In this document: positions 2,455 through 20,772 of the stretch, in pieces
Position numbering within the stretch: position 1 is the first letter of the stretch
How the letters are laid out: every line of letters starts with the position of its first letter
Assembly (NCBI RefSeq): GCF_000422905.1
Contig: NZ_AUGY01000039.1
Span: 1 to 64,000 of the forward strand
DNA length: 64,000 nucleotides
Source: Paenibacillus alginolyticus DSM 5050 = NBRC 15375
Lineage (GTDB): Bacteria; Bacillota; Bacilli; Paenibacillales; NBRC-103111
Direction of reading: 5' to 3'
Program-made: the position numbers and the translations under genes
The notes under the pieces: model-generated
Databases searched by the model: none
Told to the model about the DNA's origin: nothing
Seen by the model: the letters and a program-made list of their open reading frames with translations, nothing else

Positions 2455-2609
2455 CCTATGTATTAGGAAGATGTAGATAACCATGTTGTATTCTAGAATA
2501 GGGATTCATTCATACGGTAACCTCAATTAGTTGGAGATGGGGGAGGCTGCAGCGCTATGTTCAAAACAAGCAGGTGAATTTCTAAATAAATAGACATTAA
2601 TAATAATTT

Positions 2610-2625
2610 AGTTAAACGCGTAACT
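2610..2625. promoter_or_regulatory. Upstream LacI-type operator (O2)
   Basis: AGTTAAACGCGTAACT is a 16-bp near-palindrome centred on CG, as usual for LacI/PurR operators, with two mismatches between halves. It lies 86 bp (centre to centre) upstream of a second, nearly identical copy, so DNA looping or cooperative binding is possible. The likely binder is the LacI protein encoded at 2727. Confidence 0.65.
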
Positions 2626-2648
2626 GATAAATCAATTTAATGGTAAAA

Positions 2649-2662
2649 AGGTAGCGCTATCA
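2649..2662. promoter_or_regulatory. Possible CcpA cre site
   Basis: AGGTAGCGCTATCA matches the catabolite-responsive consensus TGWAARCGYTWNCW at 11 of 14 positions and contains the palindrome TAGCGCTA. It lies immediately upstream of the -35 hexamer, which would suit glucose repression. The mismatches in the left half keep this tentative. Confidence 0.4.
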
Positions 2663-2664
2663 TA

Positions 2665-2693
2665 TTGTAATATTGGATATTATGTCTTATAAT
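2665..2693 (+). promoter_or_regulatory. Sigma-A promoter of lacI and probably the cts operon
   Basis: TTGTAA (2665-2670), a 17-bp spacer and a perfect TATAAT (2688-2693). The downstream operator begins three bases after the -10, so a bound repressor would block initiation. Confidence 0.8.
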
Positions 2694-2695
2694 CT

Positions 2696-2711
2696 AGTTA
2701 AACGTGTAACT
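2696..2711. promoter_or_regulatory. Promoter-proximal LacI-type operator (O1)
   Basis: AGTTAAACGTGTAACT is a 16-bp palindrome with one mismatch and a central CG. It covers the expected transcription start and stops 15 nt before the lacI start codon. It differs from the upstream copy at a single base. Confidence 0.7.
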
Positions 2712-2726
2712 AAAGAGGGTTGAGGA

Positions 2727-3752
2727 ATGAAAAAACCAACAATTAAAGATGTAGCCAAAGTCGCAGGCGTTTCAGCAGCCGCAGTATCCTATGCATTAAA
2801 CGGCCGAACGGATAAAGTCTCCAATGAGACGATCGAGCGAATTAAGAAAATTATTGAAACCTTAAACTACATACCGGATTTCTCGGCAAGAAGTTTAGTA
2901 AAGAACCAATCCAAGTTGATTGGTATCGTGATTCCACAGACAGAATCTCATAAGCAGCTTATACTTGAAAACCCTTTCTACAGCGAAATGATAAGCGGCA
3001 TTGAGGGCAAGCTTCGCGAGTATGGGTACCACCTCTTGTTATCTGGTGTTAACCAAGGGGAGAGTTATCTGGATTTATCCGTTCAACGTAATCTGGATGG
3101 TGCCATTATGATGGGGATTTATCCGGAACAGTTTTATGACGGCTTCAAGAAAATTAATATTCCGATTGTCCTGATCGACAGTTACATTAACGACAGTTAT
3201 TTCAAGCGAATCGGCATTGATGACGAATATGGCGGATATTTAGCGACGAAGTATCTGATTGATAAAGGTCACTCCAATATTGGACTCGTGACCGGAGCGA
3301 TTCGTAAAGATGGTGTTGTCGAGAAGCGTTTCCTCGGCTACAAACGTGCGATTCGTGAAGCGAATTTCTTTTATAATCCAGACTATGTATTTGAAGAATC
3401 CATGAGTTATGAACATGGTATGGCTGCAGGTCAGCTCATCGCAAACAAGTTTCCCGAAATTACCGCAGTATTTGCTACGGGGGACATGGTCGCATTCGGA
3501 GCGATTCGGAGCTTGATGGACATGGGGAAAAAAGTTCCGGAAGACATCTCCGTTATTGGGTTTGATGATATCACGATGTCGAAGATGTTTATCCCGCCTT
3601 TAACAACAATCCGGCAAAATATCACCGAAAAAGGGGCTATTGCGGCCGAGCATCTCATCAACATGATTCAAGGCGGCGCCCAGCAAGAAGCGAATGAAAT
3701 CATGCTGCCGCTAACGATTGTGGAGAGAGCAACAGTTAGAGCCAAGGAATAA
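2727..3752 (+). CDS. LacI-family transcriptional regulator
   Basis: A 341-residue protein of standard LacI/PurR length. Residues 5-27 form the DNA-binding helix-turn-helix and hinge start (TIKDVAKVAGVSAAAVSYAL), and from about 60 a periplasmic-binding-protein-like sugar-sensing domain follows (IGIVIPQ ... VFATGDMVAFGAIRSL ... DISVIGFDDI). ATG 2727 is preceded by AGAGGG. It opens the cycloalternan cluster and is read in the same direction as the importer genes, 32 nt away. Two near-identical operators flank its promoter, so autoregulation plus control of the downstream genes is likely. The inducer is probably cycloalternan or a derived malto/isomalto-oligosaccharide, but this is inferred from neighbours only. 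Confidence 0.92.
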   Translation: MKKPTIKDVAKVAGVSAAAVSYALNGRTDKVSNETIERIKKIIETLNYIPDFSARSLVKNQSKLIGIVIPQTESHKQLILENPFYSEMISGIEGKLREYGYHLLLSGVNQGESYLDLSVQRNLDGAIMMGIYPEQFYDGFKKINIPIVLIDSYINDSYFKRIGIDDEYGGYLATKYLIDKGHSNIGLVTGAIRKDGVVEKRFLGYKRAIREANFFYNPDYVFEESMSYEHGMAAGQLIANKFPEITAVFATGDMVAFGAIRSLMDMGKKVPEDISVIGFDDITMSKMFIPPLTTIRQNITEKGAIAAEHLINMIQGGAQQEANEIMLPLTIVERATVRAKE

Positions 3753-3784: not shown

Positions 3785-4669
3785 ATGGTCGGACAAAAGA
3801 GATTTTCCAAAGCAGTTGTCATTATTGGATTTTTATTGCCAAGTTTAGCGGGATTGCTTCTGTTCCAACTCATCCCGATGCTGTCATCGGCGGTCATCTC
3901 CTTTACGAATTGGGATTTGTTAACCCCGGCGAAGTTCGTTGGGGTGGATAATTACACAGAAGCTTTGCAGGATGAGAAAACGCTTACATCACTTAAGAAT
4001 ATTCTTCAGTACATCCTTGGTTATTTACCCTCTGTTCTTGCTTTTGGTTTACTGTTCGCGGTTTTACTGAATAGGAAGCTAAGGGGAATTAAGCTCTATC
4101 GGATCTTCATCTTTGTACCCGTCATCACCTCATGGGTAGCTGTTTCCATCGTATGGCGCTGGCTGTTGAATGGACAGAGCGGACTCATTAACTACCTGCT
4201 GTCGCTAATCGGAATTCAAGGACCTGTATGGCTGCAGGACTTTGTATGGGCAATGCCTTCGATTATTGCAGTGAGTGTATGGAAGGATATCGGTTATGTG
4301 ACCGTCATTCTTCTTGCGGGACTGCAGGATATTTCGGACGATTATTACGAAGCGGCGACGATTGATGGCGCAGGCGGGTTTCAGCAGTTTTTCCGTGTAA
4401 CACTGCCGCTGCTTACGCCTAGCATCTTTTTCGTGCTTGTCATATCGCTCATCAATGGCTTCCAGCTTTTTGATCAGGTGCTAGTCATGACAGGCGGCGG
4501 TCCAGCTGGGCAAACGAGCACGCTTGTGCAGCAAATTTATGGGAATGCTTTTCAAAGCTATAAAATGGGCTTTGCCTCTGCGCAATCATGGATCTTATTC
4601 GTCATTATTTTCGCCGTCACCATCGTTCAGCAGCAGCTTCAGAAAAGGTGGGTTACCTATGACAGATAA
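3785..4669 (+). CDS. ABC sugar transporter permease, MalF type (CUT1)
   Basis: A 294-residue integral membrane protein with six predicted membrane spans. The binding-protein-dependent transport motif is EAATIDGAGGFQQFFRVTLP at about 194-213, which docks the cytosolic ATPase. It pairs with the MalG-type permease that starts 11 nt before its stop codon and with the lipoprotein at 5584. By context it imports the oligosaccharide made by CtsY/CtsZ. No ATPase gene lies in the cluster, so a shared MsmX-type ATPase encoded elsewhere probably powers it. Confidence 0.92.
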   Translation: MVGQKRFSKAVVIIGFLLPSLAGLLLFQLIPMLSSAVISFTNWDLLTPAKFVGVDNYTEALQDEKTLTSLKNILQYILGYLPSVLAFGLLFAVLLNRKLRGIKLYRIFIFVPVITSWVAVSIVWRWLLNGQSGLINYLLSLIGIQGPVWLQDFVWAMPSIIAVSVWKDIGYVTVILLAGLQDISDDYYEAATIDGAGGFQQFFRVTLPLLTPSIFFVLVISLINGFQLFDQVLVMTGGGPAGQTSTLVQQIYGNAFQSYKMGFASAQSWILFVIIFAVTIVQQQLQKRWVTYDR

Positions 4670-14860: not shown

Positions 14861-17800
14861 ATGAGTCTACCAAACAAAGAAATTCCACGTATCCTTGCTT
14901 TTTTTACAGTGTTTACGTTGTTTGGTTCAACCCTTACCTTGCTTCCTGTTTCGCCTGCACATGCCTATGTCAGCAGCCTAGGGAATCTCATTTCTTCGAG
15001 TGTCACCGGAGATACCTTGACGCTAACCGTTGATAACGGTGCGGAGCCGAGTGATGACCTTTTAATAGTTCAAGCGGTGCAAAACGGTATTTTGAAGGTG
15101 GATTATCGTCCAAACAGCATAGCGCCGAGCGCACAGACGCCGATGCTCGATCCTAACAAAACTTGGTCAGCTGTAGGAGCTACGATTAATACGACAGCCA
15201 ATCCAATGACCATCACGACCTCCAATATGAAGATTGAAATTACCAAGAACCCGGTGCGAATGACGGTCAAAAAGGCTGATGGCACTACGCTATTCTGGGA
15301 ACCAACAGGCGGAGGGGTATTCTCAGACGGTGTGCGTTTCCTTCATGCCACAGGGGATAATATGTATGGCATCCGGAGCTTCAATGCTTTTGATAGCGGG
15401 GGTGACCTGCTGCGGAATTCGTCCAATCATGCCGCCCATGCAGGTGAGCAGGGAGATTCCGGTGGTCCGCTTATTTGGAGTACGGCAGGATATGGATTAT
15501 TAGTCGATAGCGATGGCGGCTACCCCTATACAGATAGCACAACCGGTCAAATGGAGTTTTATTATGGCGGGACCCCTCCTGAGGGACGTCGTTATGTGAA
15601 ACAAAACGTGGAGTATTATATTATGCTCGGAAACCCCAAGGAAATTATGACTGACGTAGGGGAAATCACGGGGAAACCGCCTATGCTGCCTAAGTGGTCG
15701 CTTGGTTTCATGAACTTTGAGTGGGATACGAATCAAACGGAATTTACGAATAATGTGGATACGTATCGTGCCAAGAATATCCCCATAGATGCTTACGCCT
15801 TCGACTATGACTGGAAAAAGTACGGGGAAACCAACTATGGTGAATTTGCGTGGAATACGACTAATTTCCCTTCTGCTTCAACGACTTCTTTAAAGTCAAC
15901 AATGGATGCTAAGGGCATCAAAATGATCGGAATTACGAAACCCCGCATCGTTACGAAGGATGCTTCTGCGAATGTGACGACCCAAGGGACGGACGCGACA
16001 AACGGTGGTTACTTTTATCCGGGCCATAACGAGTATCAAGATTATTTCATTCCCGTAACTGTACGCAGTATCGACCCTTATAATGCTAGCGAACGTTCCT
16101 GGTTTTGGAGTCATTCCATTGATGCGCTTAATAAAGGGATCGTTGGTTGGTGGAATGACGAGACGGATAAAGTATCTTCGGGTGGAGCGTCATATTGGTT
16201 TGGCAATTTCACAACAGGCCACATGTCTCAGACGATGTACGAAGGGGGGCGGGCTTACACGAGTGGAGCGCAGCGTGTGTGGCAAACGGCTAGAACTTTC
16301 TACCCAGGTGCCCAGCGGTATGCGACTACGCTTTGGTCTGGCGATATTGGCATTCAATACAATAAAGGCGAACGGATCAACTGGGCTGCCGGGATGCAGG
16401 AACAAAGGGCAGTTATGCTATCCTCCGTGAACAATGGCCAGGTGAAATGGGGCATGGATACCGGCGGATTCAATCAGCAGGATGGCACGACGAACAATCC
16501 GAATCCCGATTTATACGCTCGGTGGATGCAGTTCAGTGCCCTGACGCCTGTTTTCCGAGTTCATGGGAACAACCATCAGCAGCGCCAGCCATGGTACTTC
16601 GGATCGACGGCAGAGGAAGCTTCCAAAGAAGCTATTCAGCTGCGGTATTCCTTGATTCCTTATATGTATGCCTACGAGAGAAGTGCTTACGAGAATGGGA
16701 ATGGGCTCGTTCAACCATTGATGCAAGCCTATCCGACAGATGCGGCCGTCAAAAATTACACGGATGCTTGGATGTTTGGTGACTGGCTGCTGGCTGCACC
16801 TGTGGTAGATAAACAACAGACGAGTAAGGATATCTATTTACCGTCTGGGTCATGGATTGACTATGCGCGAGGCAATGCCATAACTGGCGGTCAAACCATC
16901 CGATATTCGGTTAATCCGGACACGTTGACAGATATGCCTCTCTTTATTAAAAAAGGTGCCATTATTCCAACACAGAAAGTACAGGATTACGTAGGGCAGA
17001 CTTCCGTCACTTCCGTTGATGTGGATGTGTTTCCGGATACGAAGCAGTCGAGTTTTACGTACTACGATGATGATGGCGCCAGTTATAACTATGAGAGCGG
17101 CACTTATTTTAAGCAAAATATGACTGCGCAGGATAATGGGTCAGGCTCGTTAAGTTTTACATTAGGAGCGAAGAGCGGCAGTTACACGCCGGCTCTCCAA
17201 TCCTATATCGTTAAGCTGCACGGTTCTGCTGGAACTTCTGTTACGAATAACAGCACTGCTATGACATCTTATGCAAGCTTGGAAGCATTAAAAGCTGCCG
17301 CTGGGGAAGGTTGGGCGACTGGGAAGGACATCTATGGGGATGTCACCTATGTGAAAGTGACGGCAGGTACAGCTTCTTTTAAATCTATTGCTGTTACAGG
17401 TGTTGCTGCCGTGAGCGCTATTTCTTCGCAGTACGAAGCTGAGGATGCATCGCTTTCTGGCAATTCGGTTGCAGCAAAGGCGTCTATAAACACCAATCAT
17501 ACCGGATATACGGGAACTGGATTTGTAGATGGTTTGGGTAATGATGGCGCTGGGGTCACCTTCTATCCAAAGTTGAAAACTGGCGGTGACTATACTGTTT
17601 CTTTACGTTATGCGAATGCTTCAGGCACGGATAAGACTGTCAGTATTTTTGTTAATGGAAAAAGAGTGAAGTCCACCTCGCTCGCTAATCTCGCAAATTG
17701 GGACACTTGGTCTACGCAATCCGAGACACTGCCTTTGACGGCAGGTGTGAATGTTGTGACCTACAAATATTACTCCGATGCGGGAGATACGGGCAATGTT

Positions 17801-18715
17801 AACATCGACAACATCTCGGTGCCCTTTGCGCCAATTGTCGGTAAGTATGAAGCAGAAAGTGCTGAGCTCACTGGCGGCAGCTCATTGAACACGAACCATT
17901 GGTACTACAGTGGTACGGCTTTTGTAGACGGTTTGAGTGCCGTAGGCGCTCAGGTGAAATACAACGTGAATGTCCCTAGCGCAGGAAGCTATCAGGTTGC
18001 CCTGCGATATGCGAATGGCAGTGCTGCGACGAAAACGTTGAGTACTTATATCAATGGAGCTAAGCTTGGGCAAACCAGTTTTACAAGCCCTGGTACTAAT
18101 TGGAACGTTTGGCAGGATAATGTGCAAACGGTGACGTTGAATGCAGGGGCAAACACAATTTCGTTGGCATATGACGCCGCTGACAGCGGGAACATCAACT
18201 TAGATCGTCTGCTTCTTTCAACTTCGGCAGCGGGAACGCCGGTTTCTGAGCAGAATCTGCTAGACAATCCCGGTTTCGAGCGTGATACGAGTCAAACCAA
18301 TAACTGGATGGAGTGGCATCCAGGCACGCAAGCTGTTGCTTATGGCGTTGATAGCGGCTCAACCACCAATCCGCCTGAATCTCCGTGGTCGGGTGATAAG
18401 CGGGCCTACTTCTTTGCAGCAGGTGCCTATCAACAAAGCATCCATCAAACTATTAGTGTTCCTGTTAATAATGTAAAATACAAATTTGAAGCCTGGGTCC
18501 GCATGAAGAATACGACGCCGACGACGGCAAGAGCTGAAATTCAAAACTATGGCGGATCAGCTATTTATGCGAACATCAGTAACAGCGGTGTTTGGAAATA
18601 CATCAGCGTAAGTGATATTATGGTGACCAATGGCCAGATCGATGTTGGATTTTACGTGGATTCACCTGGTGGAACTACGCTTCACATGGATGATGTCCGC
18701 GTGACCAAACAATAA
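14861..18715 (+). CDS. ctsZ: 6-alpha-glucosyltransferase (cycloalternan pathway)
   Basis: A 1284-residue secreted GH31 enzyme with the signal peptide ending at about AHA-Y36; AAAGGGAG precedes ATG 14861. The GH31 barrel carries candidate nucleophile D433 (GWWNDETD) and acid/base D495 (LWSGDIG). The C-terminus has two CBM35-like modules (about 865-985 with NTNHTGYTGTGFVDG, and 1000-1120 with NTNHWYYSGTAFVDG) and a third beta-sandwich carbohydrate-binding region (about 1130-1284). Length and sequence agree with my memory of the Bacillus globisporus CtsZ enzyme, which adds an alpha-1,6 glucose to the non-reducing end of malto-oligosaccharides to supply CtsY. It is the last gene of the cluster. 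Confidence 0.93.
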   Translation: MSLPNKEIPRILAFFTVFTLFGSTLTLLPVSPAHAYVSSLGNLISSSVTGDTLTLTVDNGAEPSDDLLIVQAVQNGILKVDYRPNSIAPSAQTPMLDPNKTWSAVGATINTTANPMTITTSNMKIEITKNPVRMTVKKADGTTLFWEPTGGGVFSDGVRFLHATGDNMYGIRSFNAFDSGGDLLRNSSNHAAHAGEQGDSGGPLIWSTAGYGLLVDSDGGYPYTDSTTGQMEFYYGGTPPEGRRYVKQNVEYYIMLGNPKEIMTDVGEITGKPPMLPKWSLGFMNFEWDTNQTEFTNNVDTYRAKNIPIDAYAFDYDWKKYGETNYGEFAWNTTNFPSASTTSLKSTMDAKGIKMIGITKPRIVTKDASANVTTQGTDATNGGYFYPGHNEYQDYFIPVTVRSIDPYNASERSWFWSHSIDALNKGIVGWWNDETDKVSSGGASYWFGNFTTGHMSQTMYEGGRAYTSGAQRVWQTARTFYPGAQRYATTLWSGDIGIQYNKGERINWAAGMQEQRAVMLSSVNNGQVKWGMDTGGFNQQDGTTNNPNPDLYARWMQFSALTPVFRVHGNNHQQRQPWYFGSTAEEASKEAIQLRYSLIPYMYAYERSAYENGNGLVQPLMQAYPTDAAVKNYTDAWMFGDWLLAAPVVDKQQTSKDIYLPSGSWIDYARGNAITGGQTIRYSVNPDTLTDMPLFIKKGAIIPTQKVQDYVGQTSVTSVDVDVFPDTKQSSFTYYDDDGASYNYESGTYFKQNMTAQDNGSGSLSFTLGAKSGSYTPALQSYIVKLHGSAGTSVTNNSTAMTSYASLEALKAAAGEGWATGKDIYGDVTYVKVTAGTASFKSIAVTGVAAVSAISSQYEAEDASLSGNSVAAKASINTNHTGYTGTGFVDGLGNDGAGVTFYPKLKTGGDYTVSLRYANASGTDKTVSIFVNGKRVKSTSLANLANWDTWSTQSETLPLTAGVNVVTYKYYSDAGDTGNVNIDNISVPFAPIVGKYEAESAELTGGSSLNTNHWYYSGTAFVDGLSAVGAQVKYNVNVPSAGSYQVALRYANGSAATKTLSTYINGAKLGQTSFTSPGTNWNVWQDNVQTVTLNAGANTISLAYDAADSGNINLDRLLLSTSAAGTPVSEQNLLDNPGFERDTSQTNNWMEWHPGTQAVAYGVDSGSTTNPPESPWSGDKRAYFFAAGAYQQSIHQTISVPVNNVKYKFEAWVRMKNTTPTTARAEIQNYGGSAIYANISNSGVWKYISVSDIMVTNGQIDVGFYVDSPGGTTLHMDDVRVTKQ

Positions 18716-18786: not shown

Positions 18787-20709
18787 TTAAACGTTTTGAA
18801 GTGCTTGCTGAACTTCTTGCACAATGGATAACGCCGCGGTGCGGGCGCTTGAGAAAGCTCGTTCTGCAAGCTCTCCCTTACCTGTACAGCCGTCTCCGCA
18901 GAAGTAGAAAGGCACGTTTTCCACACGTATCGGCAGTAGATTATTGGAAGCAATGTTTTTCACGCTGGAAACCATCGCTTTCTTGGAAACCCGTTTCACG
19001 GCTGTGACATCGCGCCAGCCTGGATAATGTTTATCAAATAAGGCTTCCATTTGGAGGTTCTTCTCTTCCAGGTATGCTTTGCGCTGCTCCTCGTTATCGA
19101 AGCGGTCGCTTAAGTATGCGATACCTTGCAGCAGCTGACCGCCTTCTGGTATTAGTGTGTGATCCGTCGCGGAAACATCGCTGATGAATAGCTTGTTATC
19201 CATGTCGCTGATGTAGCTGAAGGGTCTAGCGACAACACGGCTTAATCCAACGTCGTACACCATGACTTCGGTTGCGGTATTGGATTCATATGGAGCTAGG
19301 AACGGCTCCCATGCAGTACCTTTCAGAAGCTTGACGACTTGCTGAACCGGCATGGCGAAAATCACTTTGTCAAAGGCGACTTCACGGTGTTTGGTTTGCA
19401 ATACAAATTTGCGATCCGCATATCGCAGGCTCTCCACGCCTTCTTGAAGGGCAATCTCCCATTTGCCAGACGTTGTCAGCTTTTGCTTAAGTTGATTCGT
19501 AATGACGGCCCAGCTTCCCAATATATAATTAACTGGCTTCGAGGAAAGGAACAAGTTGTGATAGTACTCGCTGATTACCGCTCCGGAGACGTTGCGAGCA
19601 TCCTCAGGCGTAATGAAGAAGTTGGAGCAAACCAGATGCTCCCATAACTCTTTAACATCCTCGTCTGCATTGGATTCTGCCAAATAATCTGCAAGCGTTG
19701 CGTAGTTTTTTAGGTTGTGAATATTCGCGATAATAGCGGTAATTTCACCGACGAATCTTACTTTTTGCATGGTGCTGAGCAAATCAGTTTTTAAAAGGTT
19801 AATCGCATCGAGCGGTGCTGGCGTAAGCTGATTATTTTTCGCATAAAAAACTTTGCGTTTATCTACTTGCTTAGAAGAAAAAGATAGTCCAAGCTCACGT
19901 TCCATGTTTGTTAATGTATGACGATCAATCCCATAGATGGCATGTGCGCCATAATTGAGTGTAAATCCTGCTTTTTCGTAAGTAAAAGCACGTCCTCCAA
20001 GCTGCGGGCTGCGCTCGAAAAGGATACCTTCGACATGCGGATTCTCAGATAAATAAGCGGCCGCTGTTAATCCAGCCAGGCCTCCGCCAATAATAGCTAC
20101 TTTCATTTTGTGTTCCTCCTTGGGGACTGGTTCTACCTGTAGGGATGCGTAAGGCTCCGCGGAGCGTATACCTACCCAAAGCCAGGCTAAGTTGTTTTTC
20201 ATCATGGAGAGTAAATCGGCTTCTTCTTGATTGCACCAAGTACGGACCGTTCCCGTATACATGCAAACGAGCAGTTCGATTTTTCTTGGTTCAGGAAGCC
20301 AATGTAATAAACTTTCAGATAATACGTTTAATTGCTGCTGTTCTTCCGTTTTTACGGTTTCATTTTGCAAGGATAATGCTTGTAAGCTTCGGACTAGTCG
20401 TGGTGAGGAATGAATGTTGGACGATAAGTCTAAAAATAAGCGATTAATATGTCCTTCTAAGGACTGAACCTTGGACGGAGGCTGCTTCACCCATTCTTGA
20501 ATCAATTGAATTTGTTTACTGTAAAGTGCTGAAATGATAGCATCTTTACTTTTAAAATAATGATAAAACGTTCCCTTTGATGATCCCGTCGCTGCGATGA
20601 TATCGTCTACGGACACATTCTCATAGCCTTTTTCCATAAACATGGTTAAAGCGACTTCCATCATCACATCACGCTTTTTGCGGGTGGAGGCTCTCATGAA
20701 TTGGCTCAT
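18787..20709 (-). CDS. TetR regulator fused in frame to an FAD-dependent oxidoreductase
   Basis: One unbroken frame of 641 residues from ATG 20709, which has GGAG 7 nt before it. A longer TTG start at 20754 is excluded because it lies upstream of the -10 box. The first ~200 residues are a TetR-type regulator (VDDIIAATGSSKGTFYHYF). From MKVAIIGGGLAGLTAAAYL onward, 439 residues form a flavin amine-oxidase/phytoene-desaturase-like enzyme with a Rossmann GxGxxG and the C-terminal FYFCGDGCTGKGELAERAF. The junction contains AAGGAGG and an ATG at 20106, so the enzyme is probably also made alone. Either the regulator gene lost its stop codon or this is a true fusion. The enzyme substrate is unknown. 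Confidence 0.82.
   Translation of the reverse strand: MSQFMRASTRKKRDVMMEVALTMFMEKGYENVSVDDIIAATGSSKGTFYHYFKSKDAIISALYSKQIQLIQEWVKQPPSKVQSLEGHINRLFLDLSSNIHSSPRLVRSLQALSLQNETVKTEEQQQLNVLSESLLHWLPEPRKIELLVCMYTGTVRTWCNQEEADLLSMMKNNLAWLWVGIRSAEPYASLQVEPVPKEEHKMKVAIIGGGLAGLTAAAYLSENPHVEGILFERSPQLGGRAFTYEKAGFTLNYGAHAIYGIDRHTLTNMERELGLSFSSKQVDKRKVFYAKNNQLTPAPLDAINLLKTDLLSTMQKVRFVGEITAIIANIHNLKNYATLADYLAESNADEDVKELWEHLVCSNFFITPEDARNVSGAVISEYYHNLFLSSKPVNYILGSWAVITNQLKQKLTTSGKWEIALQEGVESLRYADRKFVLQTKHREVAFDKVIFAMPVQQVVKLLKGTAWEPFLAPYESNTATEVMVYDVGLSRVVARPFSYISDMDNKLFISDVSATDHTLIPEGGQLLQGIAYLSDRFDNEEQRKAYLEEKNLQMEALFDKHYPGWRDVTAVKRVSKKAMVSSVKNIASNNLLPIRVENVPFYFCGDGCTGKGELAERAFSSARTAALSIVQEVQQALQNV
20104..20121 (-). 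promoter_or_regulatory. Internal ribosome site and start codon at the TetR/FAD junction
   Basis: On the minus strand AAGGAGG (20121-20115) is followed after 8 nt by ATG (20106-20104), which begins MKVAIIGGG, the canonical N-terminus of a flavoenzyme. The ribosome site itself encodes Lys-Glu-Glu in the fusion frame. Starting here gives a 439-residue enzyme. Confidence 0.75.
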
Positions 20710-20743
20710 CCGCTCACTCCATTCCAACCATCGATTTACTCCT

Positions 20744-20772
20744 ATTATATGCAAAAATAGACTTTCAGTCTA
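20744..20772 (-). promoter_or_regulatory. Promoter of the TetR-oxidoreductase gene
   Basis: On the minus strand TAGACT (20772-20767), a 17-bp spacer and perfect TATAAT (20749-20744). The -35 hexamer is one half of a perfect palindrome, and transcription would start near 20737. Confidence 0.75.
20758..20772. promoter_or_regulatory. TetR-type palindromic operator
   Basis: TAGACT-TTC-AGTCTA is a perfect inverted repeat of two 6-bp arms. It covers the -35 box, a typical arrangement for an autoregulating TetR repressor. Confidence 0.7.

Follow-up and report, generated by a model that had tools for sequence, protein, structure and literature searches.

The fused gene and its joint

In the window, by which we mean the whole 64,000-nt stretch of DNA that was analysed, a TetR-type regulator and an FAD enzyme are encoded in one open frame on the minus strand. 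The frame has 640 codons and runs from the ATG at 20709 to the end of the stop codon at 18787 (positions 18787 to 20709, 640 aa, stop included in the coordinates), as assigned from the open frame and Pfam matches. It stays open 5′ of this ATG, up to a TTG at 20754. The closest named matches are from Paenibacillus, and the source assembly is a draft of 214 contigs and 8.3 Mb. Converging on the fused gene is an ORF of 1284 aa on the plus strand (14861 to 18715) which, judged by eye, resembles a secreted glycoside hydrolase.

The TetR part comprises residues 1–201 (20107 to 20709, minus strand). It contains a TetR_N domain (54.6 bits, cut-off 24) and matched no C-terminal Pfam family. In the AlphaFold2 model this part is helical to residue 182 with good confidence; then follows a linker, in which residues 187–198 fall below pLDDT 50, and after it the flavoenzyme fold. 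The enzyme part comprises residues 202–640 (439 residues; 18790 to 20106, minus strand), which is also the predicted free product; it matches the Pfam families Amino_oxidase, PF01593 (77.2 bits, cut-off 19.8), and NAD_binding_8 (55.4 bits, cut-off 21.9).

The first-pass annotation had claimed that there is no stop codon between the two proteins and that a Shine–Dalgarno (SD) sequence with 8-nt spacing and an ATG sit at the joint. Both observations are correct. The 201-residue TetR region runs directly into the 439-residue enzyme, and the joint reads CCC AAG GAG GAA CAC AAA ATG AAA GTA GCT ATT ATT GGC GGA GGC. The AAGGAGG occupies 20121 to 20115 on the minus strand, 8 nt 5′ of the internal ATG (residue 202, 20106 to 20104), after which the enzyme begins with MKVAIIGGG; SD and ATG are thus placed exactly at the beginning of the enzyme. 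The first start codon of the gene is preceded by GGAG (20717 to 20720, minus strand).

Identity of the enzyme part

The fold of the enzyme part resembles the structures of phytoene desaturase, protoporphyrinogen oxidase and monoamine oxidase. The best fold matches were a phytoene desaturase (5mog; Z 24.5, 422 aligned residues, 4.4 Å) and an archaeal oxidoreductase (3ka7; Z 24.5, 390 aligned residues, 4.2 Å), with 16% identity to both. The whole AlphaFold2 model has a mean pLDDT of 72.8 and a pTM of 0.53, and confidence is middling in the enzyme part, so that the ranks of fold matches within the superfamily are uninformative; nor does a common fold indicate a substrate. The motif GGGLAG (the GxGxxG of the dinucleotide fold) was invariant across 46 aligned rows. 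On these matches the enzyme part is assigned to the flavin-containing amine oxidase superfamily as a predicted FAD enzyme. None of the best 25 of the 47 matched NCBIfam families reached its curated cut-off; HpnE (78.1 bits versus a cut-off of 283.05) and protoporphyrinogen oxidase (proto_IX_ox, 59.4 bits versus 97.85) were rejected by this measure. The PDB sequence search, NCBIfam and the fold comparison lead to the superfamily only and to no named enzyme.

Distribution of the fusion

The first-pass annotation had proposed looking for the same fusion in related strains, and we found it there. Counting the own genome in each case, the full-length fusion with no internal stop was present in all 30 genomes of the same genus, the fusion was present in 85 of 104 genomes of the family (match threshold E 1e-80), and in the order search (E 1e-60), where 139 of 392 genomes gave a match, 98 of the 392 carried a fusion of this type, which we call the first type. 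Among the remaining family genomes one (G078) had the two parts in different frames, two had the enzyme alone and 16 had no match at E 1e-80. The other matches in the order were two distant fusions (31–32% identity), 37 enzymes alone, one frame-split gene and one fragment; the most distant fusion of the first type (G107) showed 60% identity. From 98 confirmed loci on named contigs 80 were kept, 67 fused, 12 enzyme-only and one frame-split (L103), and these locus counts are non-independent, as some strains are present both as a named contig and as a genome. Plasmids gave 77 matching records, none covering >80% of the query; the best 20 of the 77 cover the TetR part only (query residues 5–186).

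A sequencing error or a strain-specific fusion is ruled out by the presence of the fusion in so many genomes of the order. The first-pass annotation had named a sequencing error as the alternative, with relatives carrying a stop before the internal ATG; the frames of all 30 genus genomes are open, and the order TetR–stop–enzyme was found in no relative examined. One genome with a first-type fusion in the order search (G042) was flagged with a TAA. The named record matching it (L086) is open across the joint, with 208 codons before the GGG and 427 after; this open frame equals the one given for G042, so the TAA is not at the joint. L103 (Paenibacillus sp. P25) has its TetR part and its enzyme in two overlapping ORFs of different frame (at about 4549–4557); the split may be either true or an assembly error.

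Selection on the open frame

Linker length, counted from the last TetR helix to the internal Met, was measured in 74 of the 76 distinct fused genes; it is 18, 19, 20, 23, 29 or 31 codons, and the frame is always kept. To obtain a neutral expectation, we simulated the unselected evolution of 15 linker codons along the enzyme-part tree of the 76 fused genes, with nucleotide rates of 0.5, 1 or 3 times the protein rate and 300 runs per rate. A stop-free outcome was seen in 0 of 300 simulations at each of the three rates, the mean number of simulated tips with a stop being 30 to 39 of 76; the fused genes were classed by being open, however, so that relatives without an open fusion make the proper comparison. 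We inspected 21 such first-type relatives over 1.8 to 4.6 kb 5′ of the enzyme and found the order TetR–stop–enzyme in none of the 21. A TetR ORF was seen in one of them, L103, in a different frame.

Among 20 close relatives dN/dS was 0.050, 0.216 and 0.022 for the TetR part (residues 1–182), the linker and the enzyme, as calculated without saturated pairs (151, 185 and 90 usable pairs, respectively, of 190). As neutral runs gain stops and no TetR–stop–enzyme relative was found, the open frame across the joint looks to be under selection.

The internal start codon

The ATG at the joint is present in 75 of the 76 distinct fused genes. In these 75 genes the pairing energy with the anti-SD sequence at the joint ranges from −6.3 to −13.5 kcal/mol (mean −10.5). 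As a background, we considered 982 other in-frame ATGs of the same genes, 8.2% of which reach −6 kcal/mol or lower, versus 75 of 75 at the joint.

The spelling of the SD sequence varies by lineage, AAG GAG GAA (Lys-Glu-Glu) or AAA GGA GAA (Lys-Gly-Glu). Where the middle codon encodes Glu it is GAG in 56 of 56 genes, versus 44% elsewhere in those genes, and where it encodes Gly it is GGA or GGG in 19 of 19, versus 38% elsewhere, these tallies counting genes and not independent events. Since AAGGAGG and AAAGGAG both preserve the site, under KEE and KGE, respectively, the SD site is kept at the nucleotide level. The suggestion that two products come from one gene is therefore well supported by the conservation of internal ATG and SD: the internal start is likely to be under selection, and the conserved signals predict a second product, the free enzyme.

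In the window the pairing energy is −6.5 kcal/mol at the first start and −11.2 kcal/mol at the internal start. In 57 fused loci the match begins with a start codon, and the mean for the first start in these was −8.6 kcal/mol. With the internal SD stronger than the first one, the free enzyme is likely to be the commoner product. The single exception to the conserved ATG (L120, one genome) has ATT and no SD at the joint, but its frame is open, both domains are there and the upstream palindrome described below is perfect; this suggests that the fused protein may be usable without the free enzyme.

A palindrome at the promoter

Upstream of the fused gene lies the palindrome TAGACTGAAAGTCTA (20758 to 20772), which we predict to be the operator for the TetR part; the 8.3-Mb assembly has no other perfect copy. 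The palindrome spans the −35 hexamer of a predicted promoter, TAGACT-17-TATAAT (20744 to 20772, minus strand), which matches the consensus at 10 of 12 positions. This was one of the two best among seven promoter-like matches, shuffled sequences giving 4.3 such matches on average, so that the promoter match by itself is weak.

Of the 30 same-genus genomes (5.9 to 9.2 Mb), 27 have a single copy of the pattern TAGACY-N3-RGTCTA and three have two, and in each of the 30, own genome included, one copy lies 46–57 nt 5′ of the fused gene. The reversed pattern, used as a control, had 42 sites in the 30 genomes. As chance predicts about one site per genome, the unexpected part of the result is that 30 of the 33 sites, all except three further copies, are located at this one promoter.

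The palindrome was perfect in 77 of 81 TetR-bearing loci, the frame-split L103 included, versus none of 20 TetR-less loci. The four TetR-bearing exceptions are L057 (one mismatch), L123 (three mismatches) and two loci of a second fusion type discussed below (L118 and L119). Expressed as 99 distinct enzyme sequences, 75 have both TetR part and palindrome, four have TetR only (the same four loci), 20 have neither, and none has the palindrome only. Taken over independent pairs, the association is carried by few separate losses, with three pairs on starred branches of the tree and none opposite (sign test, median p 0.25). The arms are invariant among the 75 distinct loci by definition of the pattern; the three centre positions vary.

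The −10 hexamer is located 23–24 nt from the first base of the palindrome in 58 of the 75 loci, window included, 45–47 nt from it in 14 and elsewhere in three. The two spacing classes differ by about two helical turns. With a spacing of 45–47 nt the −35 box is downstream of the palindrome, a layout in which an activator could act as well.

We also saw imperfect copies. The own genome has five further sites with one mismatch. Four of these are located within ORFs; the fifth (L143, C64:850-864) falls between ORFs, with an ORF start no more than 250 nt away on either side, and is a possible second target of the TetR part. Among TetR-less loci, candidate remnants were noted with one mismatch in L106 (2 of 200 shuffles as good) and with two mismatches in L105 (8 of 200), L104 (5 of 200) and L131 (8 of 200); the case for decayed palindromes before the TetR-less genes L106 and L105 is weak.

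The first-pass annotation had suggested that the protein controls its own promoter. Given the palindrome in all 30 genus genomes and its distribution over TetR-bearing and TetR-less loci, control of the fused gene's own promoter through the predicted operator is well supported at the level of sequence.

Gains, losses and a second fusion type

In the tree of 99 enzyme parts the TetR-less rows are scattered among the fused rows, with six changes, at least four of them forced by starred branches. Most simply, these would be repeated losses of the TetR part. An enzyme-only copy with 80% identity and no palindrome was observed in Paenibacillus silvestris (L101), in a genome that also has a fused copy (L047).

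A fusion of a second type was found in three loci (L118, L119 and L144). In a separate tree including enzymes from other Bacilli these form one clade that has a TetR-less sister (support 100/98) and is placed far from the first type. Their TetR parts show 24–30% identity to those of the first type over the BLAST-aligned stretches. The internal ATG lies 15 codons before the GGG, versus six in the first type, and its SD energies are −9.3 to −10.3 kcal/mol.

Directly 3′ of the −10 box of the second type we read by eye an element, ATGACCRTAGTA-N15-GTCAT. With no mismatch it occurs once per genome, at the fused gene, in G106, G114 and G409 and was not found in G429, a genome with the enzyme alone; the pattern was built from three of these loci, so that an exact match there is by construction and the absence elsewhere is the result. 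With up to two mismatches the four genomes each gave one to five matches, some of them by chance, and the reversed pattern gave one to three. The element is an inverted repeat in L144 (20-nt arms, 80%); in a run on L118 and L144 the repeat finder did not report it in L118, where the repeat is imperfect.

We favour two separate fusions of one enzyme family over a single ancient fusion followed by many losses. Counts on an unrooted tree cannot separate gain from loss, and the single-fusion scenario could draw further on L160 (G530:C1:3751000-3756000), where a separate TetR gene adjoins an enzyme of the TetR-less type, as would fit an old partnership; on the other hand, the second type nests within TetR-less enzymes in the tree, and identity between the TetR parts of the two types is as low as 24–30%. 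In L160 the TetR ORF (2481 to 3074, plus strand) is divergent from the enzyme, which lies on the opposite strand, and its product is 29% identical to the second-type TetR part over residues 2–190. It is perhaps an unfused form of the same TetR–enzyme partnership. Among 19 TetR-less loci from other Bacilli it was the only one with a TetR ORF within 2.2–3.2 kb 5′ of the enzyme. The long open frames before the enzyme in G443, G595, G714 and G454, seen in the class search, contained no TetR according to reading and BLAST; the query of that search was of the first type, and fusions of other types could escape it. A phylum search with a second-type query (E 1e-60) returned the own genome only among 398.

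A proposed mechanism and its alternatives

We consider it probable that the TetR–flavoenzyme gene is repressed by its own product and is translated into two proteins. The TetR dimer of the full-length fusion would bind the palindrome over the −35 box and repress its own gene, until a small molecule binds to the TetR part and releases the repressor; most likely this would be the flavoenzyme's own substrate or its product. Neither a conserved partner gene nor a known substrate was noticed that would hint at this molecule. The transcript would then be translated from two starts to give a fusion of about 70 kDa and a free flavoenzyme of about 48 kDa (at 110 Da per residue). By logic alone, the free enzyme would remove the inducer, and the fusion, carrying the same active site on the repressor, would shut the gene again once the inducer is gone. 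Sequence comparison supports four elements of this scheme: a conserved fusion, an open frame and an internal start that are both under selection, and an association of the TetR part with one palindrome close to the promoter. What we infer is repression rather than activation, the nature of ligand and substrate, and any sensing role for the flavin.

It is possible, and we put it forward tentatively, that the gene represents a class of one-gene circuits: a flavoenzyme with its own TetR repressor, whose sole strong target would be its own promoter, whose internal start would fix the ratio of sensor-enzyme to free enzyme, whose DNA-bound enzyme would read or destroy the inducer, and which would have arisen at least twice in one enzyme family.

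The role of the covalent link can be seen differently. The flavin could itself be the sensor, so that reduction of the enzyme domain or binding of substrate would change how tightly the fused TetR dimer binds DNA, much as in PutA, where flavin reduction has a role in switching. This reading is unlikely in our judgement, although almost every fused lineage keeps the enzyme attached to its repressor, even L120 with no internal start, and another fusion of the same enzyme family sits apart in the tree; that such functional switching works in principle is demonstrated by PutA (PMC5293562). However, a linker of 18–31 codons that is poorly conserved and has pLDDT <50 does not suggest tight mechanical coupling. 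In addition, proteins of the TetR family usually detect their ligand with a C-terminal pocket of their own, and as the modelled TetR part keeps a full-length helical C-terminal region, it could sense a ligand by itself. Alternatively, the fusion could be a matter of mere co-expression, the TetR part and the enzyme acting independently with the covalent link idle. The internal start supplies free enzyme anyway, several lineages have dropped the TetR part and kept the enzyme, and the two parts are in different frames in L103, all of which would fit; yet for an idle link a stop in the linker would be neutral, and TetR–stop–enzyme was seen in no relative examined. Moreover, L120, judged by its start signals, makes the enzyme only as a fusion, and the arrangement occurs at two separate places of the enzyme tree, so we think an idle link rather improbable.

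Two further explanations concern the internal start and the sign of regulation. A fusion of two neighbouring genes would at first leave an AAGGAGG–ATG at the joint, and the site might be an unused relic of formerly separate genes; it has been kept, however, despite a genus mean dS of 1.6 in the TetR part and 2.0 in the enzyme (computable pairs), with synonymous codons fixed so that the SD persists while the amino acids change, and a relic is hardly credible. That the full-length protein activates its own promoter, at least where the palindrome is upstream of the −35 box, would be in line with the 14 of 75 loci with the longer spacing of 45–47 nt. In 58 of the 75, the window among them, the palindrome is on the −35 hexamer, where a bound protein would block the polymerase, and activation is accordingly quite doubtful. 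Autogenous repression with two translation products remains the reading that we prefer.

If it is true, the circuit would seem to be self-contained, with a promoter, one operator, one gene and two proteins, and the substrate of a widespread Bacilli flavoenzyme family could therefore be searched for through what relieves the repressor. Natural controls exist in the lineages without the TetR part, from which the palindrome is gone too, and in the one without the internal start.

Comparison with known systems

The first-pass annotation had seen in this gene a new type of one-component regulator, which is too strong, given the precedents of PutA and TipA. Trifunctional PutA is a flavoenzyme with an N-terminal DNA-binding domain; it represses its own genes and is switched by proline from a DNA-bound repressor to an enzyme (PMC5293562). 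The fused protein is like PutA in being a predicted flavoenzyme with an N-terminal DNA-binding domain and in its predicted logic of self-repression. Unlike PutA, which has ribbon–helix–helix, proline dehydrogenase and P5C dehydrogenase domains, it combines TetR_N with an FAD enzyme of the monoamine oxidase/phytoene desaturase type: Pfam gives TetR_N and Amino_oxidase, and ribbon–helix–helix, PRODH and P5CDH domains are absent. The TetR–flavoenzyme gene also has a conserved internal start, and the abstract of PMC5293562 mentions none for PutA.

The tipA gene of Streptomyces lividans is autoregulated and has two start codons, giving the full-length regulator (TipAL) and, predominantly, the free effector domain (TipAS) (PMC7762955). 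The present gene would be similar if it is translated from two start codons, with a short form that lacks the DNA-binding domain, as predicted from start signals conserved in 75 of 76 genes. TipA is a MerR-type activator with a drug-binding effector domain, whereas here a TetR-type domain is joined to a predicted enzyme; neither MerR-type nor TipAS domains are among the Pfam matches of the fused protein.

QdoR (YxaF) of Bacillus subtilis is a member of the TetR family. It represses its own gene and the gene of QdoI, an oxidative enzyme that removes the inducer (PMC8481877). Unlike QdoR and QdoI, which are separate proteins from separate genes with more than one operator, the present system is one fused gene, and 27 of the 30 genomes of the genus have a single perfect palindrome.

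In the titles and abstract openings of the literature matches listed (open-licence papers) we found no flavoenzyme that carries a TetR domain and has a second start codon, and among the matches listed for internal starts nothing was closer than TipA. What appears to be new is the combination, the TetR type, the single perfect target site in most genomes of the genus and the likely repeated origin. If the proposed reading is true, a TetR-based design with two products would join the few enzymes that also act as transcription factors for themselves.
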